Source: Sinohyriopsis cumingii
Lineage: Eukaryota > Mollusca > Bivalvia > Unionida > Unionidae
DNA: 64,000 nt
Direction: 5' to 3'
Assembly: GCA_028554795.2 (NCBI GenBank)
Contig: CM068835.1
Coordinates: forward strand, 58,815,219 to 58,879,218
In this document: positions 3,303 through 63,953 of the stretch, in pieces
Numbering within the stretch: position 1 is the first letter of the stretch
How the letters are laid out: the number at the start of each line of letters is the position of its first letter
Notes under the pieces: generated by a model
What the model was told of the DNA's origin: nothing
Database searches by the model: none
Seen by the model: only the letters and a program-made list of their open reading frames with translations
Program-made: the position numbers and the translations under genes

Positions 3303-3921
3303 CTGATAAAATAGCAATTTCCTTCATTCTGTCAATGTAGGCATCCTCAAGGATTTTGTCCATACAGCATGAAAGAATAATATCAATCTCACTTTTGAAG
3401 TTACATTTCAGGGTTTGACTAATGGAACTAAAGTACACATCAAATCTGCTGACAACATCCTTAATATCTGTGCATAGGTTGTTGAAATCTGCAGTGTTGA
3501 TTTTGGCCTGTGTGGCATGGCCATAAAGAGTGTTTCTGAACTCTCTTACTCTCTCTATGTCATCACCCAATGTTGTTCCACCAGGGGGCGGTGTTTTCCC
3601 CCACTGTATGCTGGGAGTTGGGACATTACCACAAAGGTTCCTTATTAGTGTGTACAGTGAGGAGACATCAAATTTTTCAGCAATGGGAATCTCAGGGGAA
3701 GAAGGAGATATACCTAACAACCATGTTTTTATCTTGACATCAAGTTTTCCCAATTTGTTTTGATCTGTCTGAACTCTGTTTGGCAGATCAGACGGTGGTA
3801 CTTCACGTGTTAGCACCTGCCAGAGAACATCTCGTAATACATCAACCACTATCCGGCAAATACGTGCAAAGTTTGTGGTCTCCTGGCTGGATACATAAGA
3901 ACTACTGCCGGAACATGCCAT
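3303..3921 (-). CDS. HEPN_DZIP3-like domain, first coding exon
   Basis: Starts at ATG 3921 with the peptide MACSGSSSYVSSQETTNFAR and ends at a consensus donor (TCAG then GTAAGT). The 206-residue product resembles the HEPN domain that metazoan DZIP3-like proteins carry near the N terminus, a family greatly expanded in molluscs. The HEPN signature R-x4-6-H is visible as RNTLYGH near residue 133, preceded by an Arg/Glu-rich helix. In this family the domain is thought to bind or cleave RNA and is often linked to ubiquitin-ligase or signalling modules in innate immunity; which module this gene carries lies outside the window. Exon 2 adds a coiled coil. A degraded copy of the 5' half of this exon lies at 4225-4343. 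The domain assignment is from recognisable pattern, not a profile search. Confidence 0.72.
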
Positions 3922-33381: not shown

Positions 33382-36300
33382 TTACTTCTTCTGCTCAGGC
33401 ACCTGCAAATTAAAACAAAATTGTAATGCTTAAATAAAGTCATATCATCTCAGCACTAGTTACATATGCAGAAGTCATGTTGTTGTTGTTGTTGTTGTGG
33501 GGTTTAACGCCATTTTTCAGCACACGATAGACTATACATGGCGGCCAGTATTAATGGTGGAGGAAGAACCCGGGAAAACCCCGGAAAGAACCACCGACCC
33601 TCGAGAAGCTACTGGCAAGCTTTCTCATATACCCACATTGGCTGAATCTTAGACTCGAACCGCCGCAGACAGAGGTGAGATGGCAGTGATCCGTAACGAA
33701 GAGCGCTTTAGACCACTCAGCCACTCGGGGCCCCCAGAAGTCATGTTAATCAGCATTATAAAAATGTATGAAATTTTCTTCACTGCACTTGTGCTTCCCT
33801 TACTATCGTTAAGCCATGATACAAGATAACTTTGCACTTACTTATCATTTCTGGCAAGTGGATGGTGCAATCAATTTGCACAAAGATGAATTTATTTCAT
33901 CCAAATATTTCATGTGAATAAAAATTCCAAATGGAGGCACTTGTCCGATCAGACAAGATATATGCATATTGTAGTTAGCTGGACTCTAGCTTTGATAGTC
34001 CTGGGCAATAGGATAAGCTGATTTTGTTATCAGTTTAGAAATGCATCCGCTTTGCAAATACTATGCTTTAAAAGACGAAACTGAATCCAATATTGATGAA
34101 ATAAGAGTCATTTGGATTACCTTGTTTTTTATCATTCTGCGTTGGTTGGGTGCATATTTGAGGGTCTCTGATATGGTCTCTTCTATTCCATTTGCCTTTG
34201 CTTTGCCATTAGTTTTCAAGCAGGCTTCTGCAAGAGTAATACAATGTTTTAAAAAAGTTTCACAACAAAGGATGCATTGCATTTTTCTAAATGCCAGCAA
34301 TAATCAATGGAATATTTTTAAAACATGTACTTTGAAATGTGGTCTCAAGTTACTTTATCAATTCATTTAAAAATCTCTGGCAAGTCACATGAAAAACACA
34401 ATTTAAATCAAGCCATACTTACTTATCAAAACCTGACATATCACAAGCTCTTGAAATGCTTTTTTCCCTTTACGTCCCTTTGGACTATACTCTGGCCAGT
34501 CTTTTTGTTTTAAGCTTTTTCATCATCCTGCAGACACTATCCCCAATTGTAAACCTGCCAAGGGAGCTCAAGTAGCATATCTGAAAATAATAATAATAAT
34601 AATATTACTATTTTTTGATTTTGATATTATTATTAGTAGTAGTATTTCATGATCGATGTGACAAAATATGCTTGTATATAGTTATTTTTTGCCATGGTTT
34701 TGCAAGCAAATTTAATTTCTCTAACTTGAAAAAAATTTGATAACATTAACTATGCAACACAATGTACTAATAGCAATTATAAACCAAATTAACCACCGTG
34801 AATCTATTAACTTCATAAATGACATTCACTCAAGGATTGAATTAAAGTAGCCACATAATATGTAATAGTGTATATGTAGTAAAATACCTGTTACATGTTC
34901 ATCTCTAAACATGTTTTGGCCTACATCCGTAAGACAAAACAGCCGACCACTACATGTTCACCCCACCCCCAAAAATAATTATACAGGCACTGCAGAACTT
35001 GCATAATGCATATTGAGGTTCACAACAGCAAATAAAGGTTATAACAGTTTTTTTAAATAGAAAATAAAGCCCCAATTTACCATCTTCTTGGAGAGTTTGG
35101 GATTCTCCTCCAACCTCTGGCAAAGGCCCTCTAGTTCCTCCACTGAATCACATGGCAATGCAAGAATTTCTTCTCTATATTCTGTGTCTGGGCCTTGTGT
35201 ATGAACTTGGAGGGCCAGCTGCTCCAACAAATTCTCAATATTTGTGTCCAGTTTCATAAGTACATTGAACTGGAAATCTGTAACAGATTTGTGATGAAAT
35301 TAGTTTTGAAAGATCAAGATCATTATTATAAACTCCTTAAAAAGATCTGTACAGTGAACATGGGTTTAACAATGAAATATATTTATGGAATGAAATACAT
35401 GGTTTTTGTACAGTTTATATGAAAACTTTTCCCATAATCCTTTATTTTTTTATTCCCTGGATATGTTGTTTCACTGCTGGTGTCTGTAAAGTCTGCATTC
35501 AATGTAGATGGTTTAGGCGTCTGACTTACACAAGACAATGGTATACATCAGAAAGAAAAATAAAAAAAAACAATGGAATGATGAACAGTCGACACATCAA
35601 TGAAAAACAATTCATTGTTTATTTGCACAAATAAGTCCTGAACAGTATGTTTTATGACCTATAATTTAATTAATTAACATCTCACAATGTTCTGAAATAA
35701 CAGTATCTAAGCTACAAGAGCTTGTGCTTTCATGTCATAATCTTCCATTTTGCAAACAAATTTTGATGTTGAATCAATGTATATGACCTTAGCATTGAAC
35801 ACTAACATTCAAAATGTCTACAAGATGACAAGACTATTATCAACTGAAGTGACAACAAACCAATGAGTTTTACGTGCATTGAACATAAGCATTTTTAAAT
35901 GCTACAAAATGTGTTTTTAGTGTATGGCCACAAATTACCCAACATTTTGTCAAACATAAAACAGTTCTACTACCTTAGATGAGAATTAAATTCATAAATA
36001 CAGTGTATAATTGACCTACTCGTATTTAGAGAGCTGTAAATGAAATAAGAGATTATATAAAAGTCAACACCTGTAGTATTTGTTTCATTATTCTATAATG
36101 TACATTTTTTTTCCATCCTCAATACTTACTACTTGCAGAGGAACTGGCAGAGAGAAATCTTTATATTCTCCACTCCAGAGTGGATGGGGATGGTGATGGT
36201 GTTGTCCTTCTGGATGCAGCTAAGAGTATAAAGATTATCACTACTCCTTAATTGCAGTAAAAAAGAAACAAAGAAATCAGACTGGATTTTTTGGCATGTA

Positions 36301-37129: not shown

Positions 37130-38650
37130 CTAGAGTGCACCAAAGTCATGTGAACTTGATCCAATTCCAACATTACTGCTGCTTGAGTGCTTAGATCCAG
37201 TATTGCCTTCACTAACTGATGTTATTAATACCTCTCTCTCATCAGCATAATTTCCATCATTTTTCAAAACTCCCATTGTAAAACCTCTGCTGAAGAAACT
37301 AACACTACACCATAAGGATTTAAAGAACTACTGCCCGGTTTCTAATCTCCAATTCATATAAAAAATCTTACAAAAGGTTGTTCAATCCCAGCTTGCATCT
37401 TGTCTGAATTCAAACAGTCTTTTTAGCAATGTACAATCTGCATATCGCCCTTGCCACAGGACACAAATTGTGTCTGCAAATAGATTACACTCCAGCCCAG
37501 TTGATCTATGTTGTGGTGTTGCACAGGGGTCTGTTCTTGGACCTGTTCTCTACACTCTATACACTCAGCTGCTCTCAAGTGTCATAGATCATCATCCAGT
37601 GTCTCACCAATTGTACACTGATGACACCCAAATATACAAATCTAGCCACCCAACTGAAGTTGATGCTACCATCCAAGGTGTAGAGATGTGCATTTCTGAT
37701 GTGAAATCATGGATGACTTGTAACAAGCTGCAGATGAATGATGATAAAACTGAGGCCATTCTGATTACAACACAAAGACTTTCTCATTCACATCCTTTAC
37801 CTCACACAATAAATATCAGCAACACCAACATTAAATTCACACAATCAGTACAAAACCTAGGTGTTACTCTGGACAGTACTCTCACATTGCACCAACATGT
37901 CATGAACATATGCAAGGCTGCATATCTTGAGCTGAGACACATCAGCTCCATTCTCAGATATCTTTCAGCTGATGCCACTAAAACACTTGTGTGTTCATTA
38001 CTACTTTCAAGACTGGACTATGGTAACTCAATTCTGTCTGGTTCATCTTAATATCTACTGCAGAGACTTCAAAAAGTTCAAAACATAGCTGCTTGGATCA
38101 TACTTCGAGTACCACAATCAGAGCACACCTCCCCGCTGCTCTGTACCCAACACTGGCTATCCATTCGATCCAGAATCAAACACAACATTAGTTCTCTGTG
38201 CTACGTTTCACTGACAGACTCTAGTCCAACATACCTATCCGACCTCACCTATGTGTACACACAAGCAAGATACTTACACTCCTCTTCCGACAATCATATA
38301 CTCATTATTCTCACTATGAAAACAGAGTCACATGGACAGCATTCTTTTGCATACCAGCGCCCAGCAACATGGAATGAATTGCCCACTGAACTTAGACACA
38401 AAGACGCAGTGATCCCATTCAAGAGTGCTCTCAAAACTACTTATTCTGACTGCAAAAACAAACTTAATGACTTAATAATGTTAACTACCTTAAATATTCT
38501 CAGCATGTTTTTTATGTTTTCTAATTTCATGGCGTTTGTTTTTGTAATCATATCATTGTGTATGTTTTTATGTTGTCTAATGTTGCAAAGCACTTAGAGC
38601 TTCTAAAGATTAGGCGCTATACAAAGTTCTCATTATTATTATTATTATAT
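37130..38650 (+). mobile_element. LINE 3' part with reverse transcriptase, L2/CR1-like
   Basis: Reverse-transcriptase motifs in order: VKPLLKK and LKNYCPVSNLQF near 37275-37360 (interrupted by a stop), SAYRP, CGVAQGSVLGPVLY, the catalytic LYTDDTQIY near 37615, TCNKLQMNDDKTE, NLGVTLDSTL and SRLDYGNSIL. A stop at about 38050 is followed by more C-terminal domain (WNELPTELRH, 38370-38400). The 3' end carries the phrase ggcgctatacaaag and an (ATT)n tail at 38628-38648, as in L2/CR1-like elements. It is 5' truncated and dead. The endonuclease piece at 4.9-5.6 kb may be the same family. Confidence 0.82.
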
Positions 38651-39140: not shown

Positions 39141-39644
39141 CTAAAGTGATCTTGAAAAAAGATTAGTAAAGTTTAACATTTTATAAAAAAATAAACTATT
39201 ATGTGGAAAAGAAACAACAATGAAATAGGATGCAATGTGTTTACGTCTAGTTTTGGAAGGTACCGTCTCTAAGGTACCGTCATAATTGTACCGTAGTTTA
39301 ATGGGTGGAAAGGCCATTGAAAGGTAAGGGCAGTGCGGAGACCATCGAGTATGTTCCAGAATAGCTGAATCTTTGTAGATACATAGATCCATTCGTAACT
39401 TCAGTCCGCAAGCGAAACACTGTACTTCGTATCCCAATCCTGACTCAGGTCCGAAGTAGACAAATCCTGTTCTAGCTAAAACATATGAAGAAGGTAATCC
39501 TTCCCTATCCGTAGGCCATTTTTGAAACATGTCCAATCGACGGGCACAATCACAATAGTCAGGTAAGAAGACTGGAAAATGGTAGGGTTTGAACTTGGAG
39601 TTCTCGCTGGATTTCTCACTCGCTTCTTGCTGTGGCGAAGTCAT
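39141..39644 (-). CDS. BIR-domain (IAP-like) protein of the first viral block
   Basis: Frame of 167 codons starting MTSPQQEASE. Residues about 34-108 form a BIR domain: the ARRLDMFQKWP start, an LARTGFVYFGP segment, and the zinc ligands C76, C79, H98 and C105 in the pattern C-x2-C-x18-H-x6-C, ending WSPHCPYL. BIR proteins of animals and their viruses bind caspases or IAP antagonists; whether this one blocks cell death cannot be told. It lies 16 bp downstream of the polymerase frame, on the same strand, and has no visible break in the domain. The last ~35 residues are low-complexity and may be readthrough into flanking DNA. No RING finger is seen. A captured host gene inside a viral element is the simplest reading. 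Confidence 0.75.
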   Translation of the reverse strand: MTSPQQEASEKSSENSKFKPYHFPVFLPDYCDCARRLDMFQKWPTDREGLPSSYVLARTGFVYFGPESGLGYEVQCFACGLKLRMDLCIYKDSAILEHTRWSPHCPYLSMAFPPIKLRYNYDGTLETVPSKTRRKHIASYFIVVSFPHNSLFFYKMLNFTNLFSRSL

Positions 39645-39659
39645 CCTTCTGGTGGGTGG

Positions 39660-42600
39660 CTATCCTCTTACAACCAATGTTTTATACCGACATGTCCATA
39701 CGGCAAAGTAAAGTGGGTGGGAAACCGCACTCGCTTCTGCTACACGATTTGATAGACTTTTTCCAAGGGTCGACTGACGATGTGGTGTGTGGGTAAACGT
39801 ACAATCTTGTTGGGTTGATAGGTGGTCACTTTCTCTAGACTGCAAGGCTTCTTTCAATACGCCAAAGTTGACCACTCGACTGGTACGATAATTCAGAGTA
39901 AGTCCTTTCACTTTACACTTCGTGTGCACTTCTTGTTTGTCCCAGTATTCGTAGCCGTAATTTTTGGAACCACCACTGACGAAACTTAGAATCTTGTCAT
40001 CGGGGTGCTCGTCTGTCCAGGCTCCTAAACAGTCTCCTTCGATGTCAGGGTGCTGTTGACTCGGGTGATCGATATAAATGCAACTGTCCACGTCAAAGTA
40101 CAAGACACGTTCCCCTAACAGTTCTAAAGCTTCATACAATTTTAAGCGAGCATGAGCTGTCATGTAAGCTGCAATGATGACATTTCCAAAGGGGTCATCT
40201 TCTACAAAGTTCAGATCTTCTTCGTAATTCACCAAGATCAAATCCTCACGAACGACGTCCACGTGTTTCATGAATTTGGCTTTGTCGTGAATCATCTGAA
40301 AGTAGCGGGAAGGTTCGGTCAAATACTCCGTCTTGGGTAAACACAGTCATTGTGCCATTTTACCCCACAAGCAATTTAACATCACTTTGGCAAACGATCG
40401 CCTGCCTTCGTTTTTCTCAATGTGATCTAAAGTAATGCCTTCTTGTGCCCAGAATTTCTCTCTGAATGTCTTTTGGTCTTCGGGAGTGTGACACCAGGAC
40501 AGATAGCCACTGGCTTCTTGCTTCAGTTTCAAAAAGGCATCCACGTAGTCTGCGAAAATGCCTTTCTGCGTGGGGTCACCCTTGTGGAATTATTGTGTCT
40601 TGGGAAAGTGGCAAATTTCGTACACTTCTAACAGTTGGTATCCCATGTTCAGAGCTTTGAACAATTCTACGCTGACCCATGTCCCCGTCAAGGCCCGTTC
40701 TTCCTGGGTGTGATGACAAGGTTGATCTTGGTTGCACGTTTCAGCACAAGTACGGCACAAAGGAAACATAAGTTTGCCTTGGCAATGGCGAGGTAAGACG
40801 GGATGGTATAGGTTCGTGGGAGGCAAAACTTTGCACTTGATCAAGCCTTCGTAGTGTCGAATGTTTTTTAGGTCGATGTGTTCGGTGAACAATTGTGGGT
40901 GCCCTGCAGGAAAGCAACAATATTTGCACACGTAGGGATACAGTGAACACACGTCCAAGTATTTGATTTTTTCTCCTTTCTCTTCATCAGCTTGGTACAG
41001 CAAACAGGTGGCATTGGTCCTTCCTCCGTACAAACTATCCCTCGGGTTCAGGGGGTCCATGAACTGGCAACTTTCCATGAGGCGTTTAAACTTGGGATCG
41101 GTGTTCAAACGGTGATCGTATTTGTGTTCCCACATTTCCACCACTTGGTATCCTTCCTGTTCTAACTTTAGGCGTCGCTGACAAATGGCCTGGTACAAGT
41201 CTTCCATGGTTCGTTGTAAGAACTGATTTTTAGTGCCGCGGTCAGGGTAACAGACGGGACATCCGTGAAATAAGCAACCGTTAAACTCGTACATGATCTT
41301 GGGGTTTTCTAAGTCCCAGCCATCGACCGAATGCATTCCGATGATCTTTTCGCCCTGTCCATTGCGGGCATGCTGAATCCATTTGTCTTCCTTGTCGCAC
41401 AAGTAATGCAACCAGCATGGGGCTTTGACCGAGTATTGACGTTTGACATAGTTGGTCGTTTGAGGACTGATGACAGCCACAGTGTTTTCAAGCATGAATC
41501 GTTGTTGGTAGACTAAGGAACATGCTTTGGCAATGGTGCAAGCTTCTTTCAAAGGATCAACCCCTCCGTGTTCCATGAACAGTTCTCGAAATTTTCCACA
41601 GCATCGCCGTAAAATGTCCACGTCGGAATGACGATACTTTAGCATTTCTTCCTGAAAGTCAAAAGGGTCGGAGGCGTGAGCCTGGTACCAAGCGTAGAAA
41701 GTTTCTCGTTCGGTACGCATGTTGTCAGGGTCGTAATAGTGAGCCTGAGGCAAATGGGGTAGAACGGCGTGTTGATTGGCTTCTGTATTGAAAAAGTGTG
41801 GAAAGTACCCTTTAGCCATTTCTGTCATTCCAAACATTTTAGGCATTCGACTCAAAGGCATGGCTAAGTAGCTCATCGAATCTTTAAACTGCACTTGTCC
41901 CACTTGCAAGAAAATGATTTTGGCTCCGTTCAAAGTGACTTTAGGACGCTCGGTGCCACGTTCCGTATAGCATCTCAAAAGAAACTGTCCATCGTATCCG
42001 GAGAAATTATGAGCCATCACCGTGGCATGGTGATGACATTCTCCATAATAATGTTCGATGTCCTCTTGGCTCCACGTCTTGTCGATGGGGTCTAAGACCC
42101 ATTGTGTGAAATCGGCTAGTGTGTTCGGTCCTTGAAAGATTTTTTCACGCCCTCCAGGAATCTTACTGCAGTGAGGGCAATAACTCAAGATAGGTTCTTG
42201 AATCACTTCTCGCATGCTCGATGAGCCACGCAGAAATTAGGAATGTGAATACCGGTCTCTTGCATGCATTCGAAATCGAAAAGATGAAATTGCCTTTCTT
42301 CTTCTTGTGACCATCTTCTTTCTCTGGTTGGGATTGGTATTTTTGCATGTAGCATTGGTGTTCCAAGTCCACGATGCAGTGACAAATGTGACATTTTTTC
42401 TTTCCTGAACATACGTGTGCCTTGGTACTGTTGATACATAGACCTTGTCCACACATTGGGCACAATCTCAGGAGTTGACAAGCACATTTCTTCTGTGAAC
42501 CTTGCATCTTCAGATGTTGTTGGTAACAGGCAGGGCTGACAAATGTGCGCAGACAAGCAGGACAATGCACTGGTTCTTGCCCTTCGCTCAGACAGGGTTG

Positions 42601-43700
42601 AGAGGCCAAACATCCTGAGCATTTCGATCCACAATGTTTGTGTTGCTCTCGATTATTATAACCATCATAAGTCACATTTCTCACAGTAATATTTGTATCC
42701 CAGGAATCCAGTGATAGTGGTAATGGTATCGAAATGGTCATCGTGATGATAGAGGTGAATGTATTTTCCATCCTTAAAGTCTTTCCCTCGAAACAACAGA
42801 GACCCGCGCACTTCTTGAGGGTGCACTTTCAAGGTGTATCATGGAGCTAGGGCATCTTGCAATTTTTGTATCTCAGGAATGCCACAGGATGTGTCTTTGG
42901 ACAGGCATGCTTGTTGTAACAGAAGTTCTGCTTCATTTTGTTGTTTGGCTCGGTTCGATTTTCGAATGTTCTCCCAGGCTCTTTTCCATTCTACCATGTC
43001 GTTCTTGTCGGCATAGGTTCATCCCACCACGATGGCTCGGGCTAAACACATGTGGTCTTGAAAATTGTTAATTTGGACAAGACTTGTTTTGGTAATGCGA
43101 AGGGTGTTGACCAATAAGGTCTTTCTACATTGTCCGGTCCCTTGAGGAGGAGAGACGTGGGTCATGTCCAGTGTGGCTTTTCCATCGGTGATGTCAAACT
43201 GGTCATTAGATTGTTGCACGTGTTGAATCTTGTCCATGACTTTGGAAGTGGTCAATTCTGCAGGGCTGCTAAACTCGATCCAAACAGGGGATTTCAAGCC
43301 GTCATGTTGTATGGAAAGTCTCAAGCGATCATCTTCTTTGGGTTGACATTGTCGCTTGAGTGTGGTGAGCAAAGAATCCCACATGTCGGTGATGAACCCT
43401 TCTGCTTTCTCTAACAGTACTTCAGACTTGAAATCTTTAAACTTCACTGTGTATTTGTAAGCCGTAGTTCTAAATTTTCTAGAGGGACGCTTTTCCGTCT
43501 CTCGAATGTCACAGTACTATTCAGGGTTGACTAAGGGTGGTAAACTTTGTTTAGAGGGTTTGGATTCTGGTTCACTCATGTCCTCTTCAAAATCACTGGC
43601 ATGAATTTGTGCCAAGACTTCAGCCCTGGTACGAGGCGATAGATCACGTTTCTGCCTCTTACTTTCTTCTTCTTTCTTCTCAAATGAATTGGATCATTTC
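39660..43700 (-). pseudogene. Protein-primed family B DNA polymerase, decayed
   Basis: About 1,340 codons in the same direction with many breaks. Motifs in order: zinc-finger-like Cys/His cluster (42500-42660), ExoI FDFEC (about 42280), ExoII AHNFSGYDGQFLL (about 42000), ExoIII YRHSDVD (about 41630), motif A YLDVCSLYP (about 40950), motif B KVMLNCLWG (about 40370), motif C YFDVDS (about 40100). This set and spacing fit the polymerases of Polintons/Mavericks and adintoviruses, which start replication on a terminal protein. In-frame stops are at 43517-43519, 43019-43021, 42839-42841, 40590-40592 and 40347-40349. Frame changes lie near 42690, 42300, 42215 and 39800. The gene is therefore dead. 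It shares a divergent promoter region with the zinc-knuckle gene at 43836. Confidence 0.88.
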
Positions 43701-43744
43701 ATCTCGATAGCAAAAAGTCAAATGACTAAAGTTTAAACACCATG

Positions 43745-43835
43745 GACTAATTTATAGTCATAGCAGACCAGCGTATATAAAGGGTATGTGTCTTGTCCTT
43801 TCACTATTCATTTCACTCTCAAACTGAGCACAACG
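43745..43835. promoter_or_regulatory. Divergent promoter between polymerase and zinc-knuckle genes
   Basis: A plus-strand TATATAAA at 43774-43781 lies 55 bases before the zinc-knuckle ATG at 43836. A minus-strand TATAAATTAG-type box lies near 43750-43758, facing the polymerase. Spacing suits short, unspliced leaders on both sides. Confidence 0.55.
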
Positions 43836-44292
43836 ATGGAAGAGACTACCAAGATCGAACGTTTCATCAGAGCTTTGCGAGGGGTCATTAGAAAATTCTC
43901 TTCAGACCAGCCGACGGACTACTCTCCTTCCTTTCAAGATAAAAGTCAAGATACTTGCTATATCTGTCAGAAGAAAGGGCATTGGTCTTCAGAGTGTCCA
44001 GGCCGTCAAAAAAGAAAAAAAAGGGGTTAGAAGAGACAAAAGTCAAGATACCTGTTATTATTGTCAAGAAAAAGGACATTGGTCACCAGACTGCCCAAAA
44101 AAGAAACAAGAGGAGTCAGAAGAAGAGAGGGATTCTTCAGAGGAAGAGGAAGAAGAAGAGGAAGAAAACAGACAGGTGAAGAAAAAGAAACAGAAGAAGA
44201 AAAGAAGGGAAGAAAGTGAGGAGGAAGAGGAGGAAAAGACTATGACGGTGAAGAAATTAAAAAAACAGAGAGTGAACAATGAGACAGAATAA
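43836..44292 (+). pseudogene. CCHC zinc-knuckle protein with frame break
   Basis: The frame from ATG 43836 gives a short helical N-terminal region and a CCHC knuckle (CYICQKKGHWSSECP), then meets a stop at 44028-44030. A second, similar knuckle (CYYCQEKGHWSPDCP, 44053-44097) lies in another frame and continues into a long Glu/Lys-rich acidic-basic tail that stops at 44290-44292. The two knuckles look like an internal duplication of one protein. The switch falls in the A-rich run 44008-44022, where one base would have to be skipped or two re-read. CCHC knuckles bind single-stranded nucleic acid. An AATAAA follows at about 44351, so this mRNA appears to be polyadenylated, unlike its two right-hand neighbours. 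The element is old, so an indel is the likeliest cause. Confidence 0.7.
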
Positions 44293-44478
44293 GTCTATGA
44301 ACTTTTTAAAGTGCTCTGTTGTGAATTGTGAATTGTAAATATTTATAAAAGAATAAATTAATTATAAAAGGTAAGTGTCTTTGGGTTTTGATTTTAAAAT
44401 AAGAACTTACACTCACGCACAGTCATACACAGACAGGTACTATTGGGTAAAATGATTTTTTTTAGTTATTGGCAATTG

Positions 44479-44530
44479 AAAGTCTATCTCTTTTCGAGAG
44501 ACGTGGATGGCCCTGAAAAGGGCCTTTTTT
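44479..44530 (-). terminator. Histone-type 3' stem-loop and downstream element, coiled-coil gene
   Basis: On the minus strand 22 bases after the stop codon: the sequence ACCAAAAAAGGCCC leads into an exact 16-nt hairpin GGCCCTTTTCAGGGCC (44509-44524, 6-bp stem, TTTC loop), followed by ATCC. The purine-rich CTCGAAAAGAGATAG comes about 12 bases later. This is the layout of metazoan replication-dependent histone mRNA 3' ends: a stem-loop bound by SLBP and a histone downstream element that pairs with U7 snRNA. No AATAAA is seen nearby. Confidence 0.82.
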
Positions 44531-44546
44531 GGTGTAAGGGGTGAGT

Positions 44547-45116
44547 TTAAACAATCAACTTTAACTGTCTTAAGCCTTTGCCACGGCCAAGGCCTAATTC
44601 TGGACTGCGTACTGTTGATGATGATTTCGTTGAAATCACTAAGGGTGGTGCAGTAGGCGTAGTCACAGGGTTGGAGTGTTTAGCTTGGGAAGGTCGTATT
44701 CTCTTCAGCCGTAATAAAGAAGTCTGATACATTTGTTTCAGACTTCTTAACTCCGCTAAAATGTCTAACAGTACCGTGACCGTTTGATTTTGACACCCTT
44801 GTTTCTTTGCTGCTGCTTCTTCTTCTTGTTGTTTTTTTCTTACCTCTTCTTCTTGCTGCTGTTGCTGTAGGAGAAAAGCTTGTTCCGCTTCCTTTTGCTG
44901 TTGTATAAATTTCTCCAATTCTTCTTTCTGTCTCTGTCTAAAATTTTCCATGTGCGGTAATGAAGGAGAAGGTGACGAAGGTTCAGGAACAAATTCTTGC
45001 AAGGTAAAAAAATCCACAAAATCCCAATTCACCTCTTCTGAAAGTAAGTCTGAGTTCCCTTGGGTAGTCTCCACCATCAGTGCACCCCAATTGATCGTTT
45101 TCTGAGTTTCCGTCAT
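44547..45116 (-). CDS. Coiled-coil protein of the first viral block, unknown
   Basis: The ATG at 45116 (MTETQKTINWG) is preferred over one at 45149, because 45149 lies only about 15 bases from the TATA box (45164-45171) and so upstream of the expected start of transcription. The protein has 189 residues: an acidic N-terminal part with VNWDFVDFF, a Pro/Ser-rich spacer, a long Gln/Glu/Lys-rich coiled coil over about residues 60-110, a hydrophobic heptad segment (VTVLLDILAELRSLKQM) and a basic Ser/Thr/Pro-rich tail. The open frame is undamaged although the neighbouring polymerase is ruined. No family recognised. The mRNA would end at the histone-type stem-loop at 44509-44524. Confidence 0.7.
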   Translation of the reverse strand: MTETQKTINWGALMVETTQGNSDLLSEEVNWDFVDFFTLQEFVPEPSSPSPSLPHMENFRQRQKEELEKFIQQQKEAEQAFLLQQQQQEEEVRKKQQEEEAAAKKQGCQNQTVTVLLDILAELRSLKQMYQTSLLRLKRIRPSQAKHSNPVTTPTAPPLVISTKSSSTVRSPELGLGRGKGLRQLKLIV

Positions 45117-45336
45117 GTTGAAAAACTGTCGCTTAGATTTACTGCGCACAGGCGCTAGCGAATCTATATAGACTATGTGACGTCACAGACTGCTCTCTTT
45201 GGATTGGACGTGGGCTGACTGAATTTTGTAACGCGTGTTTGGATTGGTCAACAAACTCAATCCGTTTCAATCCTTCCTCTCCCTATAAATAAGTACAGTT
45301 CACTGCATTCCTTCACCTGTTACTCAGCACCCCAAC
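45117..45336. promoter_or_regulatory. Bidirectional promoter: TATA, CRE, CCAAT x2, TATA
   Basis: From left to right: a minus-strand TATATAG box (45164-45171); a 12-bp palindrome TGTGACGTCACA containing a perfect CRE (45176-45187); two GGATTGG words, i.e. CCAAT boxes on the minus strand (45203-45207 and 45243-45247); and a plus-strand TATAAATA (45284-45291). Predicted start points are about 45138 on the minus strand and 45314 on the plus strand. The plan is that of a divergent histone gene pair. Confidence 0.72.
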
Positions 45337-45582
45337 ATGTGGACCGACGTACTATCTTCAACGCTTGTGTCTTCGATGATGTTCCGGACGGACATACCAA
45401 TGTATGTCCGATCCAACTGGACAGTTATCCACAGGACAGACACCAGCCTGTGGATGCGAAGAATCTTATGTGGAGCATCAAGGATGCCTCAAAAGAGTCT
45501 TAATCTATGGTCCTGCAGTCAGGCGCAGCCTAAGGTCAAGAAGAAGATGTCACAGATGCCCTTTATGTTAAGGGTATATTAA
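45337..45582 (+). CDS. Short gene with histone-type 3' end, product unclear
   Basis: The first ATG after the TATA box (45284-45291) is at 45337 and opens an 81-codon frame ending 12 bases before a histone-type stem-loop. The product is Met- and Ser-rich with several Lys/Arg and is not recognised. Another frame is protein-like (FNACVFDDVPDGHTN), and a third is Arg/Cys-rich near its end (RRSLRSRRRC). The true protein may therefore run through a frame break, or an indel has shifted it. The gene boundaries are firmer than the coding frame: promoter on one side, 3' processing signal on the other, only about 280 nt between them. It is divergent from the coiled-coil gene. Confidence 0.4.
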   Translation: MWTDVLSSTLVSSMMFRTDIPMYVRSNWTVIHRTDTSLWMRRILCGASRMPQKSLNLWSCSQAQPKVKKKMSQMPFMLRVY

Positions 45583-45587
45583 CATAA

Positions 45588-45647
45588 AACCAAAGGCCCT
45601 TTTGAGGGCCATTCCTATCTCTCGAAAAGATCTTGACTTTCAATTGC
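45588..45647 (+). terminator. Histone-type 3' stem-loop and downstream element, short gene
   Basis: ACCAAA precedes the hairpin GGCCCTTTTGAGGGCC (45595-45610: 6-bp stem, TTTG loop), then ATTC and, after a short spacer, CTCGAAAAGATCTTG. Over 50 nt it matches the minus-strand signal at 44479-44524 and continues into the shared GACTTTCAATTGCC. The loop base differs from the canonical TTTC by one base. Confidence 0.78.
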
Positions 45648-45745
45648 CTACCCCTTTTTTTATTTTTTTGTTTAAAAAAATAATAAAAAAATAGAGACCC
45701 CTCCCTGTTTCAATTTTCGCCTGTTCCATTTTCATAGACCCATCA
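45648..45745. other. Poly-T/poly-A spacer
   Basis: Low-complexity T and A runs after the second stem-loop. Confidence 0.6.
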
Positions 45746-45777: not shown

Positions 45778-45990
45778 CTGTTCCATTTCCCCTAGTCCCA
45801 AGACAGTCCCATGATTTATTCCCCATGTTCAATTTCCCTTGTCCCTAGAGTGAATAGTTTTTTTTGTTTCTCCCATGTTAAATTCCCCTTGTCCCTAGAA
45901 TGGATATTTTTTTTTCTCCCATGTTAAATTACATAGTCCCCAGAGTGGATATACCCTTTTTAACATGGAAGTTCCCTAGTCCCTAGACCG
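45778..45990. repeat. Degenerate ~50-bp tandem units at right end of first block
   Basis: Three to four units carrying cccatgttaaatt, cccttgtccctag and gtggatat separated by T runs, ending with an inverted word aacatgg. It looks like a subterminal repeat of the mobile element; no matching copy was found at the left end near 39.1 kb. Confidence 0.6.
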
Positions 45991-57390: not shown

Positions 57391-58065
57391 TTAACCGAAT
57401 ATTTGGTCAAGTCCGATACGATATCGTGTCCGAGGATCATGTAAATTTATCGTTACAAATCCATGTGGGGTCGACTGAGCATGACTAAAAAAGTTTCGAA
57501 AAACATTAAAGTCCATGTCACCGCCGCACCATGTTTGCCAAATATTTCGTAGCGTGTGTGTATCAACGCCGTTGAATACAGCAAGAATATTACAGTTATC
57601 TCTGATTACTTTTGGAATCTGAGTGTATCGTTGAGTGACATATATCACGTCAGTGTTTTTATGCCTGCCTCTGGAAAATATCCTAGCTGGGTTTTTTTGA
57701 TTGTCTAACATAACATCATCGTACACGACTAGATTGTTAACGTCGCCATCAATATCATCGATACCTGGTGCATCATTGATATCTGTAATAAACTCAATAA
57801 CATTTTTTTCAGCGATCGCTGATGCATTCTCGTTGAAATCTTTCAACACCTCGTAGCATCGTTGATCATCCACGCTAGGGGCGATTAAATACAACTTATC
57901 CCACTTCATCCATCTCATTATTAAATTGAGTAACAATTGCGTCTTGCCGGATCCAGATGGTCCGATGATAATCATCCGGATCGAGTTTGGTAATGCTGCA
58001 ACATGCTTATCTGGTTCTCTTGTTTTAGTCGCCGAAAAATCAATTATATTCATATCTCTATACAT
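57391..58065 (-). CDS. FtsK/HerA-type packaging ATPase (A32-like)
   Basis: 224 residues from ATG 58065; the second Met (MNIIDFSA, 58053) is an equally good start. Walker A GPSGSGKT at residues 35-42; Walker B LVVYDD at 112-117; an arginine/sensor region VTQRYTQIPKVIRDN near 144-158. The short length and order fit the genome-packaging ATPases of Polintons, virophages and adintoviruses, which pump DNA into capsids. The frame is intact. It is head-to-head with the PLA2 gene: only 5 bp lie between the first start codons. Nothing lies between it and the candidate terminal region, so it is the outermost left gene. Confidence 0.9.
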   Translation of the reverse strand: MYRDMNIIDFSATKTREPDKHVAALPNSIRMIIIGPSGSGKTQLLLNLIMRWMKWDKLYLIAPSVDDQRCYEVLKDFNENASAIAEKNVIEFITDINDAPGIDDIDGDVNNLVVYDDVMLDNQKNPARIFSRGRHKNTDVIYVTQRYTQIPKVIRDNCNILAVFNGVDTHTLRNIWQTWCGGDMDFNVFRNFFSHAQSTPHGFVTINLHDPRTRYRIGLDQIFG

Positions 58066-58070
58066 AAATT

Positions 58071-58613
58071 ATGGATCTATATTGTGTGAAGTGTAGAGTG
58101 CGTACTGGCACAAATTATATGACAACCGTTACAACAAAAAATAACAGATCGGCGCTTACTGGTAAGTGTGTACAATGCGGTATAAAGAAATTTAGATTTA
58201 TTTCTATTAGACCCGGAGATGTTTTAAAAAAAAAGCGAGGAGGTGATATTGCAGCCAAGTTATCAAAACTCCCCGGAACCCCGTGGGCAAAGGATCCAGG
58301 AGAAAAACACCTCCCAGGATATAGCTACTGTGGCCCGGGAACACGATTAGATATCAGACTCGATGATCAAAATCAGCCCAAACCCGGTGAGTATCCAATA
58401 AACGCTATCGATAAGGCGTGTCATGCTCATGATGTTGCTTACTACAAAAGTAGCGATCTGCAACAGCGTCATATCGCGGACGTAAACTTAATTCACGCGT
58501 TAAATGCTATTCCTGATAAATCCTTCAAGGAAAAATTGGCTTCATGGTTGGTAAAATCGGCTATGAAAGGTAAATTAATGATTGGAAGCGGAGCTTCTCG
58601 CGCTGGTAATTGA
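58071..58613 (+). CDS. Zinc-ribbon plus phospholipase A2 virion-type protein
   Basis: 180 residues. The N-terminal zinc ribbon has C5, C8, C33 and C36 (YCVKC and CVQCG). The phospholipase A2 domain has the calcium loop YCGPG at 86-90 and the catalytic pair H120-D121 in KACHAHDVAYY, followed by the second helix (LQQRHIADVNLI). This is the form found in parvovirus VP1 unique regions and in adintovirus/Polinton virion proteins, where PLA2 activity helps particles leave endosomes. The frame is intact with all catalytic residues. It sits 25 bp upstream of the integrase start, same strand. Confidence 0.9.
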   Translation: MDLYCVKCRVRTGTNYMTTVTTKNNRSALTGKCVQCGIKKFRFISIRPGDVLKKKRGGDIAAKLSKLPGTPWAKDPGEKHLPGYSYCGPGTRLDIRLDDQNQPKPGEYPINAIDKACHAHDVAYYKSSDLQQRHIADVNLIHALNAIPDKSFKEKLASWLVKSAMKGKLMIGSGASRAGN

Positions 58614-58638
58614 AAACGCTAGCGTTTATAATAACAAC

Positions 58639-59583
58639 ATGGAATCCATCTATTATTCTCCGAGAGGATACTGGAAGGGGAAGGCCGCAATTGGTAAGCT
58701 TGCAAGCGCTGCAAAAGTAACGAGGGCCACTGCGGCTAATTGGTTGTCCAAACAAGCTATATGGCAAATCTATCTACCACCGCCTAAACAAATCAACTTC
58801 TCGCGCTTTGATGTCAGCGTACCTAATGAAGTTCATCAGGCTGATATACTATTTCTGCCGCATGACAACGGTTACAAATACGCGCTAACTGTAGTTGATG
58901 TTGCGAGTCGATACAAACAAGCGGAGCCGTTAAAAACAAAGTCAGCAACTGAAGTAGCCGATGCGTTTGAGCGGATTTATCGAAGAGGTCCTCTGCGCTG
59001 GCCAAATCTATTGCAAGTTGATCCTGGTAGTGAATTTCGCGGCGCTGTTTTATCAACGCTGAAACATCATAGCGTCGCGATACGACGAGGTCATACTGCG
59101 CTACATCGTGATCAGGCAATTGTTGAACGATTCAGTCGGACTCTTGCTGAACGGTTATTTGGGTATCAATACGCGAAGGAATTCATCCAAGAAAAACGAT
59201 CTCGTGAATGGGTCAAAAGGTTGCCAGGCGTAATTGCCGCGTTAAATAACGAGATTACCCGAGCAATCAACATGAAGCCCAGCGACGCGATTAAATACGA
59301 GTATATACCCGGAAGATCAAAAATAGATAGCGTTTCCAAGCCGATTCTCGGCGATGTCACCGTGAGATATCTATATGAACCAGGAGAGCTTGAAGGCGGT
59401 AAAAAAAGAGCTACTGATCCTATTTGGAGTGTTACCACACATAACATATCAACGATAACACGATCAACTGATAGACCACCGATCTATAGACTGGATTCAA
59501 CTGCCCCACAGCGGGGGTTTACACGCGAGCAACTACAAGTGATACCTGACGATACTCAATTACCCCCGTGTGGTCTTAACTAG
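58639..59583 (+). CDS. Retrovirus-like DDE integrase, Polinton type
   Basis: Start chosen at ATG 58639 (MESIYYSPRGYWKGKAA) rather than 58582, because it clears the PLA2 gene and gives the N-terminal helix-turn-helix-like ASAAKV..ANWLSKQ usual for Polinton integrases. 314 residues. Catalytic triad D69, D128 and E163 (D-D-35-E spacing) in QADILF, VDPGSEF and AIVERF. The C-terminal part has the small SH3/chromo-like basic region (VRYLYEPGELEGGKKR) expected of target-binding domains. It joins the ends of linear viral DNA to the host chromosome. The frame is intact, and its 3' end overlaps the convergent HNH frame by 8 bp. Confidence 0.9.
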   Translation: MESIYYSPRGYWKGKAAIGKLASAAKVTRATAANWLSKQAIWQIYLPPPKQINFSRFDVSVPNEVHQADILFLPHDNGYKYALTVVDVASRYKQAEPLKTKSATEVADAFERIYRRGPLRWPNLLQVDPGSEFRGAVLSTLKHHSVAIRRGHTALHRDQAIVERFSRTLAERLFGYQYAKEFIQEKRSREWVKRLPGVIAALNNEITRAINMKPSDAIKYEYIPGRSKIDSVSKPILGDVTVRYLYEPGELEGGKKRATDPIWSVTTHNISTITRSTDRPPIYRLDSTAPQRGFTREQLQVIPDDTQLPPCGLN

Positions 59584-59791
59584 CGCCGTTGCGTCTGTTG
59601 CACTCAAGACAGGTCAACCTCACATTGGTTTTGACATGACCGAGACTGTTATCGATCCTGTCCACGGTAAATTGGCGAGCGTCTTTATCCGAATAACGGC
59701 AACGCATTACACAATTACAACTCGCGCAGTGATTATTCTGTTGTTGTCGTAACGCAATTATTAATTCGGCATCAATATCAAAACGCCGCTG
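59576..59791 (-). CDS. HNH-like C-terminal extension of the helicase gene, -1 frame
   Basis: An open stretch of about 70 codons lies in the -1 frame relative to the helicase and ends at TAA 59578-59576. The residues look like a small HNH/zinc-finger nuclease: a CASCNC zinc pair, FTVDRIDNSLGH with the central D-x2-D/H elements, NVRLTC, and LECNRR as the second zinc pair. There is no own start codon in a sensible place. The frame joins the helicase at an A8 run containing the heptamer A AAA AAC. It fills the whole gap between helicase and integrase, stopping 8 bp inside the integrase end, which argues that it is real coding sequence. Fusion by frameshifting and a one-base indel are both possible. 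Confidence 0.65.
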   Translation of the reverse strand, partial: QRRFDIDAELIIALRQQQNNHCASCNCVMRCRYSDKDARQFTVDRIDNSLGHVKTNVRLTCLECNRRNGAS

Positions 59792-61317
59792 TTTTTTTTA
59801 TCCTGTTGGCGGTAACCCGAGAGTTTTCTATCAATGACGCTTGCATCGATGATGTCGTTGTCGTTGGTGACTCCGTCACTGACTCCGTCAATAACAATTC
59901 TTCGAAGCTGATTTATCCTTCGTACTCGGGACACTGCAAGATAGACTAGATTTGACCATTCGATGCGATTATCAACCATCCAAACAATTGTGTCCGTGAT
60001 GGTTAGTCCCTGCGAGGAATGTATTGTTGTTGCGTATCCTAGCGTCCACGGGGATTTATCAGCACATAGCGCGCCCTCGACGACGCTGATATCAACGAGC
60101 ACAATATCATTCAGCACGAGAATTTGTTTTTTTGTCCCTGACGCTGTCGGGGTCGGGATTTCAACTTCAATGTTCTGCCGCCGTGTGTCCGAGGGTCTAT
60201 AGCATAACGGCACTGGGCGCGTTGGAAACTTTTCCTTATGCAACGTAAACAACTTCCGCTGAAGTGTGTCCCTGACTATCTTTCTGCTCGCTACAATTAA
60301 ATCGTTTGGTATCCATGTTTCCCAGAATTCATTTAACGGCGTTTCCGGAATCACCTCGCGGATTATTTCACACTGAATTCTATCCGGCTGTAATCTGATT
60401 AATTTTTTAACCTCGCGCAGTTGTTCATCAAGTGCTCGGTAATCAGTATCGGTTTCTTCATAATAGTCCACAAAACCCTTTAACCAATCATGTGGACCCT
60501 CGCCGACAAATGGTGGTGGTTGGCCATGGTCGCCACACATTATCACCGCTGTATTCGCGCGCAGCAACCACTCAAGAAACATTTGTAAAACATCTAACGA
60601 AACAGTACATATCTCATCCCAGATGATAACCCCAGGAATAAATTTTTCGCCCATTCGATCAGGAGTCCACTCACCGCCGCTGTATCGAAAAAAGCTGTGA
60701 TAAGTAACGGCGTCAACATTTCGTTGTTTTATCTCTCGCGCTAGTCTATGGGTCGGTGTAAGCACGATTATACTTGCCCGCGTTCGAAATAATTCAATTG
60801 CCCGAGTCGTCTTTCCCGACCCGCCACAGCCGCTTAAATAAACTGTTTTATGTCTACAAATTGGATCAGAACACGGTGGTGCATTAGACCATTCTGACAA
60901 TTTATTACCGCGTAAGTAGTTGTTCTCAACGGTGACATCTGCTGACGGGGAATAATCGCGTCGTATTTCATTTTTAATTCTCCATGTACCCCAACTCTCG
61001 TCCGGACTAGTAAACTCGGCTATGTTTTCCTTATACTTCGCGTCTATATAAAATGAATCAACGGCTACTCTAACCGCGGTGTCGGGAAATCTATTTATCA
61101 TCGAGAATAAATTGATAGCGGCATAACCCAGCATAGACGCCCTCAAATGCGGGTATGCTGGGCTGTCTCCATCGCCGTAAGTAACAACTGTACCCAACCT
61201 TGTTCCATTGGACAAGAAAGCTGTTTTGCAGTTTACGTATCTATTTTTCGCCACTGCGTCCTTGATTACGAAATCATATTCTGCGTCATCTATAATCAGC
61301 CGTGAGCAATATCGTTT
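59761..61317 (-). CDS. Polymerase motif C segment plus SF1 (Pif1/RecD-like) helicase
   Basis: Same frame as the polymerase upstream (61318-63060), separated only by TAG. The first Met is at 61254 but the coding sense starts immediately after the stop, so that Met is probably not a real start. It begins with the end of a DNA-polymerase palm: YPHLRASMLGY and the motif-C-like VAVDSFYID. The SF1 helicase motifs follow: Walker A GCGGSGKTT (residues 142-150 counted from the Met), Walker B IIWDEI, motif III CGDHGQPPP, motif V HSSQGLT and motif VI YLAVSRVRR. The zero frame ends at 59763-59761. Polymerase-helicase fusion is known, as I recall, in relatives of Polintons and transpovirons. Confidence 0.85.
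   Translation of the reverse strand, partial: KRYCSRLIIDDAEYDFVIKDAVAKNRYVNCKTAFLSNGTRLGTVVTYGDGDSPAYPHLRASMLGYAAINLFSMINRFPDTAVRVAVDSFYIDAKYKENIAEFTSPDESWGTWRIKNEIRRDYSPSADVTVENNYLRGNKLSEWSNAPPCSDPICRHKTVYLSGCGGSGKTTRAIELFRTRASIIVLTPTHRLAREIKQRNVDAVTYHSFFRYSGGEWTPDRMGEKFIPGVIIWDEICTVSLDVLQMFLEWLLRANTAVIMCGDHGQPPPFVGEGPHDWLKGFVDYYEETDTDYRALDEQLREVKKLIRLQPDRIQCEIIREVIPETPLNEFWETWIPNDLIVASRKIVRDTLQRKLFTLHKEKFPTRPVPLCYRPSDTRRQNIEVEIPTPTASGTKKQILVLNDIVLVDISVVEGALCADKSPWTLGYATTIHSSQGLTITDTIVWMVDNRIEWSNLVYLAVSRVRRINQLRRIVIDGVSDGVTNDNDIIDASVIDRKLSGYRQQDKKNSGVLILMPN
59791..59797 (-). promoter_or_regulatory. Candidate -1 frameshift heptamer A AAA AAC
   Basis: Zero-frame codons GAT AAA AAA AAC put A AAA AAC in the exact register required for -1 slippage, and the -1 frame from 59791 is the HNH frame. 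A weak CGGC/GCCG stem can form 2-3 bases downstream. Homopolymer length error is the alternative. Confidence 0.45.
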
Positions 61318-63060
61318 CTAATCGCAGTTTTTCCCACCTTGTGTGAACTTACCAATTATTCTTCTACCGAGATCTTTTGCCTCGCGGTTTCGTTGGTTGA
61401 ATATCTTTTTGGACCATTCGATGATATATTCCTTGTCGGCATCAATGTGTTTTCTGGACTCGTCAATTATGCTATCTAGACGCTCCGGTTCTGGTAACCA
61501 GACTTCAGTCTGCGCCCGGTATGATATAATCGCGTCACTGACAATCAACAAAACTAGCATTTTACAATCAATCATATACCGTAGCAGCGCTATTGGCAAC
61601 CACTTCTTTTCAGCCATGTGTCTACCGATCCAAATATAGCAACAGCGATGAAGCCCTGCCGCGAACTCAAATGATACTACGCGAGCGAATCCGGTTAAAT
61701 CAAAATCAGGCAGTGGTCCATTAATAGCAACACGAGTCATTTCATGTCTGGGGTGTCCAAATCGTTTGAAATACTCAGCGGCGGATCCATACCCGAGAAA
61801 ACTCGCTGGATAACAGGCAACCATATCAACGGAAATCATAGCGTCGCGGTTGTATTCAGTGTTCCATAGTCCACCGTGATAGTATTCCAAACAACTGGAT
61901 TGTACATCCGGTAGAAATTCCTTGCGTGTTGGGCTCCACGCATTTTTTCTTGCTGCAACATGAGCCGCAACCGATGGAATCGTAAAACAATTTGTTAGCA
62001 GTTGTTCATCATGCTCTTCAAATTCCATGGCGGTTTTTTTAATCTTGTTGTGAAACGCTTCAGTGCGATATAATTCACCGTTTGGTCTTACAAACTGATC
62101 AAAGGTATCCGCATCGTTTTCAGCGCTACGAAGTAACCACACTGACACAGGGTCGTTTTTACACAAACAAGCAATAGCATCAAATAGTTTCCTCTCCGCG
62201 AGAAAACCGTTCTCTTCCAGGAATTCCCCCGGGATATACTTTACTGTTCTATCCCGTGGAAATACTGTGATCGCGGGCGTCCACGCGTGTTCGTTATGAT
62301 CAATAATTTTGATTGGGGCTCCATTTGATTTATACTTCGATTCGTATAATACTTCACCGGTTATCGTTGTAACGGTTATTGGAAATCTTAACGACGTTTC
62401 TAATCTCGCTATGTCGCTGATGGTTGCTCCTCGTTCGCGCACTGTCTCCTCCCACTGGTTGATTTTGCTGCGTCGTAAATCAGTCAATTTGTTTCCTCGA
62501 CATGCATTTGTAAAATGCTCTATTACTGGTTCCGCTACACAATTTATCCCCGTTGACTGTTTCATCGGCGCTAGTTTTCCGATATTAGGTTTCTTATTTA
62601 ACGGGTATATTCCATAAACAACTGCTGTTTCAGGATACGCTCGTTCATAGTATGGTCTGTCAATTCCGGTTAACAGCCCCGGCTTGGAGTCGCGGCTAAC
62701 AATAACTGTTTTCTTGTCGCTGAGAACTTGTTCAAATTTATCACGTATGATCCAATTACCTGATTCCACCCGGACAATGAATTTTACTCTGAAGAAATAC
62801 TTTTTACCGTCAAGTTGTGATATTATCGTTGCTGCGCGGTTGTCGTTCATGGTAGCATCAACAACGCCATCAATTCGAAATGTTGACCAACTATGAGATG
62901 CACCATCACGCTTGAATTCATTGATACAATCGCGTATTTTACCCAACAGGGTTCTATAGTTTATTAACGCTTTTGGTGTGTCCTTGAGGACTCTATCGAG
63001 ATTGAATTTAATATTTTTCCAGGGCTTAATTGCTGCTAATTTCTTGAACTCCTCCTCCAT
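61318..63060 (-). CDS. Family B-like DNA polymerase, N-terminal and palm part
   Basis: Start chosen at the Met of MEEEFKKLAA (63060) rather than 63108, because 63060 leaves a short promoter gap before the divergent gene at 63100. 580 codons to a TAG at 61320-61318. Palm motif A VDMVACYPASF is near 440 codons in; a motif-B-like RRIIGKFTQGG lies just before the stop; motif C is on the other side of the stop in the same frame. No 3'-5' exonuclease motifs are evident in the first 400 residues, which are unassigned. The stop is not followed by a known readthrough context (next codon AAA). Taken with the helicase this is one protein of about 1,100 residues that replicates the element. Confidence 0.78.
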   Translation of the reverse strand: MEEEFKKLAAIKPWKNIKFNLDRVLKDTPKALINYRTLLGKIRDCINEFKRDGASHSWSTFRIDGVVDATMNDNRAATIISQLDGKKYFFRVKFIVRVESGNWIIRDKFEQVLSDKKTVIVSRDSKPGLLTGIDRPYYERAYPETAVVYGIYPLNKKPNIGKLAPMKQSTGINCVAEPVIEHFTNACRGNKLTDLRRSKINQWEETVRERGATISDIARLETSLRFPITVTTITGEVLYESKYKSNGAPIKIIDHNEHAWTPAITVFPRDRTVKYIPGEFLEENGFLAERKLFDAIACLCKNDPVSVWLLRSAENDADTFDQFVRPNGELYRTEAFHNKIKKTAMEFEEHDEQLLTNCFTIPSVAAHVAARKNAWSPTRKEFLPDVQSSCLEYYHGGLWNTEYNRDAMISVDMVACYPASFLGYGSAAEYFKRFGHPRHEMTRVAINGPLPDFDLTGFARVVSFEFAAGLHRCCYIWIGRHMAEKKWLPIALLRYMIDCKMLVLLIVSDAIISYRAQTEVWLPEPERLDSIIDESRKHIDADKEYIIEWSKKIFNQRNREAKDLGRRIIGKFTQGGKNCD

Positions 63061-63099
63061 ATAATTAAAACAAGTATTTAAATAAAAGAATATAGTATA
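63061..63099. promoter_or_regulatory. 39-bp divergent promoter gap
   Basis: The only DNA between the polymerase ATG (63060, minus) and the Cys-rich gene ATG (63100, plus). Very AT-rich with TTTAAATA and TATAGTATA words. Confidence 0.45.
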
Positions 63100-63435
63100 A
63101 TGAATCACTGCAAATGGTTAATGATTGGGTCGATAACCCCGTGCAATAAATCATGTAGAGGTGAATTCTGCGGGTATCATTTACAAAGCGTTCGTAATGG
63201 TTCTCTTGGCCCCCTCCCGTGCTTGGTTTGCCACGTTGGTGTAAGAGGAAAATCGCAGTTGTGTATCAATTGTGGCGGAAAGCGATACAGAGAGTTAAAA
63301 CGTTATTACGATAAACGAATAAAAAATGCCGTCATTGACCCCACCGCTGACTCCGTCAAGGACAAAATCATCAAAACTCCTCAGGACTACATTGAAAGAT
63401 TTATAATTAAACCAAATAATGAATTAGACAAGTAG
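63100..63435 (+). CDS. Small Cys-rich zinc-binding protein, unknown
   Basis: 111 residues starting MNHCKWLMIGSITPCNKSC. Cys/His pairs lie in PCNKSCRGEFCGYHL, then PCLVCHVG and CINCGG, i.e. up to three metal-binding knuckles, followed by a charged helical tail (RYRELKRYYDKRIKN). Similar short Cys-rich genes accompany Polinton-like elements in my memory, but I cannot name the family. Divergent from the polymerase and 14 bp upstream of the HNH endonuclease gene. The frame is intact. Confidence 0.65.
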   Translation: MNHCKWLMIGSITPCNKSCRGEFCGYHLQSVRNGSLGPLPCLVCHVGVRGKSQLCINCGGKRYRELKRYYDKRIKNAVIDPTADSVKDKIIKTPQDYIERFIIKPNNELDK

Positions 63436-63449
63436 TATTATTATACAAA

Positions 63450-63953
63450 ATGGACCAAGAATTTCAGCCGCATCCTGTGCTCGTTAATTACGAGGCATCT
63501 CGCGACGGCGTTGTTAGAAACCGCAGACTGAAGAAGCCGGTTGGTACCGTAAATAATCAGGGGTATTTGACGTTTAGTGCCGGAAAGAAGAAATATTTCC
63601 GTCACAGAATCATCTATGAATGCTTCCACGGATTGATCAAGGATGGTCTCGTTATTGATCACATTAATTCTAATTGTCAAGATAACAGACTGTGTAATCT
63701 GCAAGCTATCTCTCAGAGCGAAAATACTAAAAAAGGCCAAACTGGTAAGTGCTCAAAGCAAGCAAAGGGTGTCAAATCGTTTGATACAACAACTCACGAA
63801 GAAAAAACTTTTCAGTCGATGAATGAAGCCAGTAGATACTTTGACATTTGTATCGCCTCAATACGAAAAGTAGCAGAACGAGTATATCAAACAGCGATCT
63901 CAAAAAGGACCGGACACAGAATTCGATTTTCGTACACAAATATCAGCGAGTGA
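63450..63953 (+). CDS. NUMOD-HNH homing-type endonuclease
   Basis: 167 residues. The N-terminal NUMOD4-like region (YEASRDGVVRNRRLKKPV..NNQGYLTF) leads into an HNH_3 domain: FRHRIIYECFHG, VIDHINSNCQDNRLCNLQ and SQSEN carry the usual His-Asn-His pattern. A C-terminal NUMOD1-like helix-turn-helix (FQSMNEASRYFDICIASIRK) follows. This architecture belongs to phage and organellar homing endonucleases and to large DNA viruses. It stands alone here, with no visible host intron. It may help the element spread or be a passenger. Ends 47 bp from the window edge. Confidence 0.87.
   Translation: MDQEFQPHPVLVNYEASRDGVVRNRRLKKPVGTVNNQGYLTFSAGKKKYFRHRIIYECFHGLIKDGLVIDHINSNCQDNRLCNLQAISQSENTKKGQTGKCSKQAKGVKSFDTTTHEEKTFQSMNEASRYFDICIASIRKVAERVYQTAISKRTGHRIRFSYTNISE

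Follow-up and report, generated by a model that had tools for sequence, protein, structure and literature searches.

The question raised by this locus is whether two divergently transcribed genes in a block of viral genes, lying in the 64,000-nucleotide stretch of Sinohyriopsis cumingii DNA analysed here (hereafter designated the window), truly end in the 3' signals of replication-dependent histone mRNAs; to our knowledge, such a hairpin signal is otherwise reserved in animals for histone genes. The proposed gene pair and its signals comprise the following features, of which the shared promoter and its motifs were located by pattern matches only.

44471-44527, minus strand: 57-nt arm of the minus side, containing hairpin, downstream element and GACTTTCAATTGCC
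44484-44498, minus strand: downstream element CTCGAAAAGAGATAG, with the purine core AAAGAG
44509-44524, minus strand: histone-type stem-loop GGCCCTTTTCAGGGCC, with a 6-bp stem and a TTTC loop, 22 nt past the stop codon of the 189-aa gene
44547-45116, minus strand: conserved 189-aa gene, recognised by its 19 homologues and its composition
45117-45336: common divergent promoter of 220 bp
45165-45170: promoter motif TATATA
45178-45185: promoter motif CRE, TGACGTCA
45203-45207 and 45243-45247, minus strand: two promoter CCAAT boxes
45284, plus strand: promoter motif TATAAA
45337-45582, plus strand: 81-aa reading frame with a pI of 10.7, coding status uncertain
45592-45648, plus strand: 57-nt arm of the plus side
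45595-45610, plus strand: histone-type stem-loop GGCCCTTTTGAGGGCC
45621-45630, plus strand: downstream element CTCGAAAAGA, whose purine core reads AAAGAT together with the next base

Both hairpin 16-mers were found exactly at the positions and on the strands that the initial annotation had given them. They are the sole matches to GGCYCTTTTNAGRGCC with two or fewer mismatches in the 64 kb, both of them exact and on opposite strands, where 0.22 such matches were expected and two or more occurred in 2 of 100 shuffles. Moreover, the Rfam model Histone3 (RF00032) covers both sites over its full 46 positions, with E-values of 1.6e-6 (minus) and 9.3e-5 (plus) when the whole window is searched. The minus site, at 35.2 bits, exceeds the gathering score of 34, whereas the plus site, at 30.5 bits, falls short of it; the corresponding E-values in an 8-kb search were 2e-7 and 1.2e-5. 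The ACCAAA flank that had been ascribed to both hairpins lies directly 5' of the plus one, whereas ACACCAAAAAA stands before the minus one, with ACCAAA three A's further back. ACCCA as the 3' flank had to be corrected, since the actual flanks are ATCCA and ATTCC, differing from that form.

The downstream parts proved to be arranged as described earlier, with CTCGAAAAGA at the same distance and GACTTTCAATTGCC in common. Thus, the spacing is identical in both copies, the stem being followed by CTCGAAAAGA at 10 nt, by GAAAAGA at 13 nt and by AAAGA at 15 nt, and the two 57-nt arms, which span hairpin, spacer, CTCGAAAAGA and GACTTTCAATTGCC, are 86% complementary. The purine core of the mouse HDE, AAAGAG, pairs with CUCUUU of U7, as described in an excerpt of PMC7026596; the minus core is identical to this mouse core, and the plus core agrees with it at 5 of 6 positions. 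Duplexes computed, without a control, between the two elements and a human U7 5' end gave -8.1 and -7.6 kcal/mol. For a conserved gene that is not a histone gene, the claimed arrangement of stem-loop plus U7-type purine core, as at replication-dependent histone 3' ends, is supported.

The 189-aa minus gene is conserved and does not encode a histone. The 19 relatives of its product lie on contigs of 0.9-2.3 kb and show 56-81% identity, and the family has a common layout of an acidic start, a Q/E-rich helix-like stretch, an invariant DILAELRSLK, a basic stretch KR.RPS.AK and a basic end. In the protein of the window, the first 60 residues have a pI of 4.05 and include WDFVDF, and the basic stretch reads RLKRIRPSQAK. 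No Pfam cut-off was reached by this protein, and the 19 relatives carry no precomputed Pfam domains. Likewise, no histone match was obtained in Pfam for the minus ORF, the plus ORF or the 20 members of the alignment of the minus family, among which the best Pfam E-value was 0.007. Relatives of the family were found in neither the viral-contig nor the genome-contig collection searched. Judging from its sequence, we infer that the 189-aa product may be a nuclear regulator with an activation region.

Evidence on the 3' end among the 19 relatives comes from a single protein, P0007, and takes the form of protein letters, the other 18 being uninformative on their 3' ends. P0007 is the only relative that reads past the common stop of the 189-aa family, and its tail, PISGPPTSLEKRYYVNCQ, aligns in register with the untranslated PFSGPSTSLEKR*TFNCQ of the window, 13 of 18 positions being identical. 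This alignment scores 67; when the region was shuffled 5000 times by single bases and read in three frames, the scores averaged 19.6 and did not exceed 44. As far as protein letters specify bases, the tail fits 20 of the 21 positions specified by the canonical histone hairpin with ACCCA behind it, and 38 of the 42 hairpin, spacer and element bases of the window itself; the sole hairpin position that it disallows is the sixth stem base, next to the loop (closing pair). Because the identity of P0007 over the gene is 68%, a sequence that is non-coding in the window is about as well kept as the gene, and the in-register alignment with the 3' UTR of the window indicates that the 3' end has been retained in an independent copy. 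These comparisons support the view that an independent relative keeps the histone-type 3' end of the minus gene.

The same arrangement was sought at other loci. Hairpin scans of the viral-contig collection returned 111 and 82 stretches, that is, 193 loci with 194 hairpins of the same consensus, and the full layout of a histone end was present in none of them. AAAGA lies 6-35 nt past the stem in 6 of the 194 hairpins, and one of the 194 has an A-Y-Y-M flank. Only one of those six (L032) also has AAA in front of its hairpin; with a flank of TTTT, it looks like a terminator and was rejected as a histone-type end. By eye, none of the 45 viral-contig hairpins directly preceded by AA has a histone-type 3' flank together with GAAAAGA, and a scan for GGGCCA..CTCGAAAAGA yielded 85 stretches, in none of which the 5' arm could pair at as many as 5 of the 6 positions. 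Relatives of the DNA polymerase B (PolB) of the block were not found in the viral-contig collection. The genome-contig collection gave nine distant PolB loci (L194-L202), at most 37% identical, none of which has a histone-type hairpin; a search of five of them with Rfam returned no Histone3. As far as seen, the trait is thus confined to the lineage of the window. The lack of the hairpin in the nine distant PolB loci speaks against a histone-type signal adopted by the virus, as do the flanks that depart from ACCCA and the one change in the closing pair of the stem in P0007.

The gene pair stands next to viral genes, of which the following were recognised.

39141-39644, minus strand: BIR reading frame
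39141-43750, minus strand: pieces of the PolB family with stops and frame changes, and decayed viral genes including BIR; outer limits approximate
43836-44290, plus strand: remains of a CCHC zinc-knuckle gene, divergent from PolB; the domain search covered 43836-44027

The viral context stated earlier is supported by these adjoining PolB, BIR and CCHC frames. The PolB piece matches PF03175 (E 3.6e-32), the viral or organellar, protein-primed type of DNA polymerase B. Among the best 120 of its 1034 homologues, the closest is a metagenome protein with 85% identity over 61% of the query, and the nearest named animal relatives are from the bivalves Ostrea, Saccostrea, Crassostrea and Mercenaria (44-50%), followed by sea urchin, coral, nemertean and arthropod proteins; judged from these polymerase matches, the host is probably a mollusc. 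Neither an integrase nor a packaging ATPase nor a jelly-roll capsid was recognised by Pfam in seven of the eight ORFs of at least 80 aa in 39.1-45.65 kb (that at 42203-42622 being left out). Judged by its gene content, the block of about 39.1-45.65 kb appears to be what is left, decayed and incomplete, of an endogenised animal DNA virus or Polinton-type element. The CCHC gene, tail to tail with the 189-aa minus gene, has an ordinary AATAAA at 44352; thus, the histone-type signal is specific to the gene pair, and a single viral block holds both kinds of 3' end.

At 43750-43840, flanked by the PolB pieces on one side and the CCHC gene on the other, is another divergent start region, with a TATATAAAG stretch. 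Counting both strands, the window has 182 AATAAA where 128 were expected; on the minus strand, none is present between those at 35618-35623 and 45659-45664, an interval that takes in all the minus-strand viral genes. Left of the viral block, frames at 37300-38620 resemble, by eye, the remains of a LINE-type reverse transcriptase (37686-38051 is without a Pfam match), and a 224-aa frame at 3247-3921 on the minus strand has a DZIP3-type HEPN domain (PF18738). A separate Polinton-like block at 57391-63953, which may extend past the window, contains an A32-type ATPase, a phospholipase A2/DUF5679 protein, an rve integrase, an AAA helicase, an HNH endonuclease frame and, at 61318-63060, a 580-aa frame without a Pfam match. 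The integrase and ATPase at 57.4-59.6 kb belong to this separate block and not to that at 39.1-45.65 kb.

The complementarity of the arms over 57 nt, framing a segment of 1.18 kb, would also be seen if they were mere inverted repeats, either of a small transposon in the viral block or as viral terminal repeats, with an incidental likeness to histone ends. However, the hairpins match Histone3 together with their flanks and the element, and both hairpin and element persist at the gene end in P0007. Since PolB and CCHC lie outside the arms, the arms cannot delimit the element as a whole; simple transposon ends were rejected because the arm ends show no exact target-site duplication of 2-10 nt and further copies of the arms are absent from the window. 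We thus regard mere inverted repeats as very improbable. Alternatively, a host histone gene pair might have been passively captured with its promoter and both 3' ends, leaving signals that are relics useless to the virus. With its TATA and CCAAT boxes, its compactness and the short leaders, the divergent promoter here resembles those of divergent histone gene pairs. Against relics speak the minus gene, which is conserved and unrelated to histones, and its 3' end, kept in P0007 at 13 of 18 aligned positions though non-coding in the window. Passive capture of a histone pair is possible as an origin, but it leaves the conservation after the gene had changed unexplained, and as an account of the present signals it appears quite improbable.

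In a narrower reading, the minus gene alone would be served by the signals, and the plus transcript would be non-coding or polyadenylated at the AATAAA at 45682, about 70 nt beyond the plus hairpin. Besides this nearby poly(A) signal, the narrower reading is favoured by the score of the plus site below the Rfam cut-off, by its core matching at five of six positions and by the plus frame itself, for which the homologue search gave none. The codon-usage score of this frame, -10.8, is worse than those of the other two frames (-9.6 and -7.5), other frames lead in codon usage in the first two thirds of the plus region, and a supportable frame was not found when the region was viewed in all three. 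On the other hand, the plus hairpin is perfect and preceded by ACCAAA, and the frame that begins at the first ATG past the plus TATA runs for 81 codons and stops 12 nt short of the hairpin, the chance of 80 open codons being about 0.012 from base composition. Restriction of the signals to the minus gene is, on these grounds, unlikely. Of the two genes claimed originally, the minus one is substantiated by its 19 relatives, whereas coding by the plus frame, which lacks a homologue and is not favoured by codon usage, is weakly supported and uncertain; the plus transcript may have decayed, may lack a coding function or may undergo alternative polyadenylation. A 46-50-nt unit with CCCATGTTAAATTCCCCTTGTCCCTAG is repeated two to three times in tandem at 45815-45961, right of the plus hairpin, and perhaps marks the edge of the viral block.

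Collectively, it is likely that a genuine histone-type 3'-end signal was adopted by a PolB-bearing lineage of animal DNA viruses, and the evidence suggests that the virus borrowed the S-phase, tail-less mRNA pathway of the cell. We also lean, with some reserve, towards the fuller proposal that such a lineage took over the SLBP/U7 snRNP pathway for a divergent non-histone pair, yielding tail-less, replication-linked messages from the first non-histone protein-coding genes known to be expressed in this manner. Under this takeover, two viral transcripts would run apart from one compact promoter and both would be ended by the host histone pre-mRNA machinery, SLBP acting on the hairpin and U7 snRNP on the GAAAAGA element. 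Histone mRNAs are cleaved about 5 nt past the stem, and the viral transcripts would be cleaved at the same distance. The products would be short, intronless, non-polyadenylated mRNAs present mainly during DNA replication. Use of SLBP and U7 and the coupling of the viral transcripts to S phase are predictions from the DNA letters, and the plus transcript, too, would encode a protein. Presumably, one host histone 3' end was captured, and a subsequent inverted duplication gave both genes the same end. If true, the viral pair would show that the histone-end pathway can be hijacked, would offer a natural experiment on which signal parts are sufficient on genes other than those of histones and would explain how a virus could make the expression of its genes depend on DNA synthesis; RNA-seq after poly(A) selection would miss viral transcripts of this kind.

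The closest known counterpart of these ends is the metazoan replication-dependent histone 3' end (RF00032; SLBP plus U7 snRNP), with which they share the hairpin sequence, its place just past a stop codon and a purine-rich downstream element 15 nt from the stem; on the minus side, moreover, neither AATAAA nor ATTAAA was found from the stop codon down to 43901. Unlike that system, the genes here are non-histone, the flanks are ATCCA and ATTCC, and processing is a prediction. Replication-dependent histone genes of a cnidarian have a stem-loop and a purine-rich element and are without a poly(A) signal, according to an excerpt of PMC5011920. In the bivalve Lucina pectinata, the palindrome is present in all histone mRNAs, and nearby purine-rich elements are reported, in the excerpt of PMC6210712 considered, only for H1_A, H2A_X, H3 and H4, lying directly before the palindrome in H4. 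Among the titles and abstracts of open-licence papers listed, up to 20 per search, none pointed to a histone-type end on a gene of a virus or transposon, in agreement with the earlier statement that no such viral pair is known. Adintoviruses and Polinton/Maverick elements (animal MELD viruses) resemble the block in their PF03175 polymerase, with relatives in bivalve genomes among the best 120 of 1034, and in a nearby BIR-domain gene; they differ in that the block is without a recognised integrase, ATPase or capsid and in that histone-type ends occurred in none of the nine distant PolB loci. Adomaviruses and tailtomaviruses, as described in part of a preprint (PMC11071296), carry histone-like genes ('Histoid'), one of these viruses coming from a clam data set, and are likewise animal DNA viruses with histone-related material; in their case the protein is histone-like, whereas here it is the mRNA end alone that is of the histone type, on a gene for a non-histone protein.
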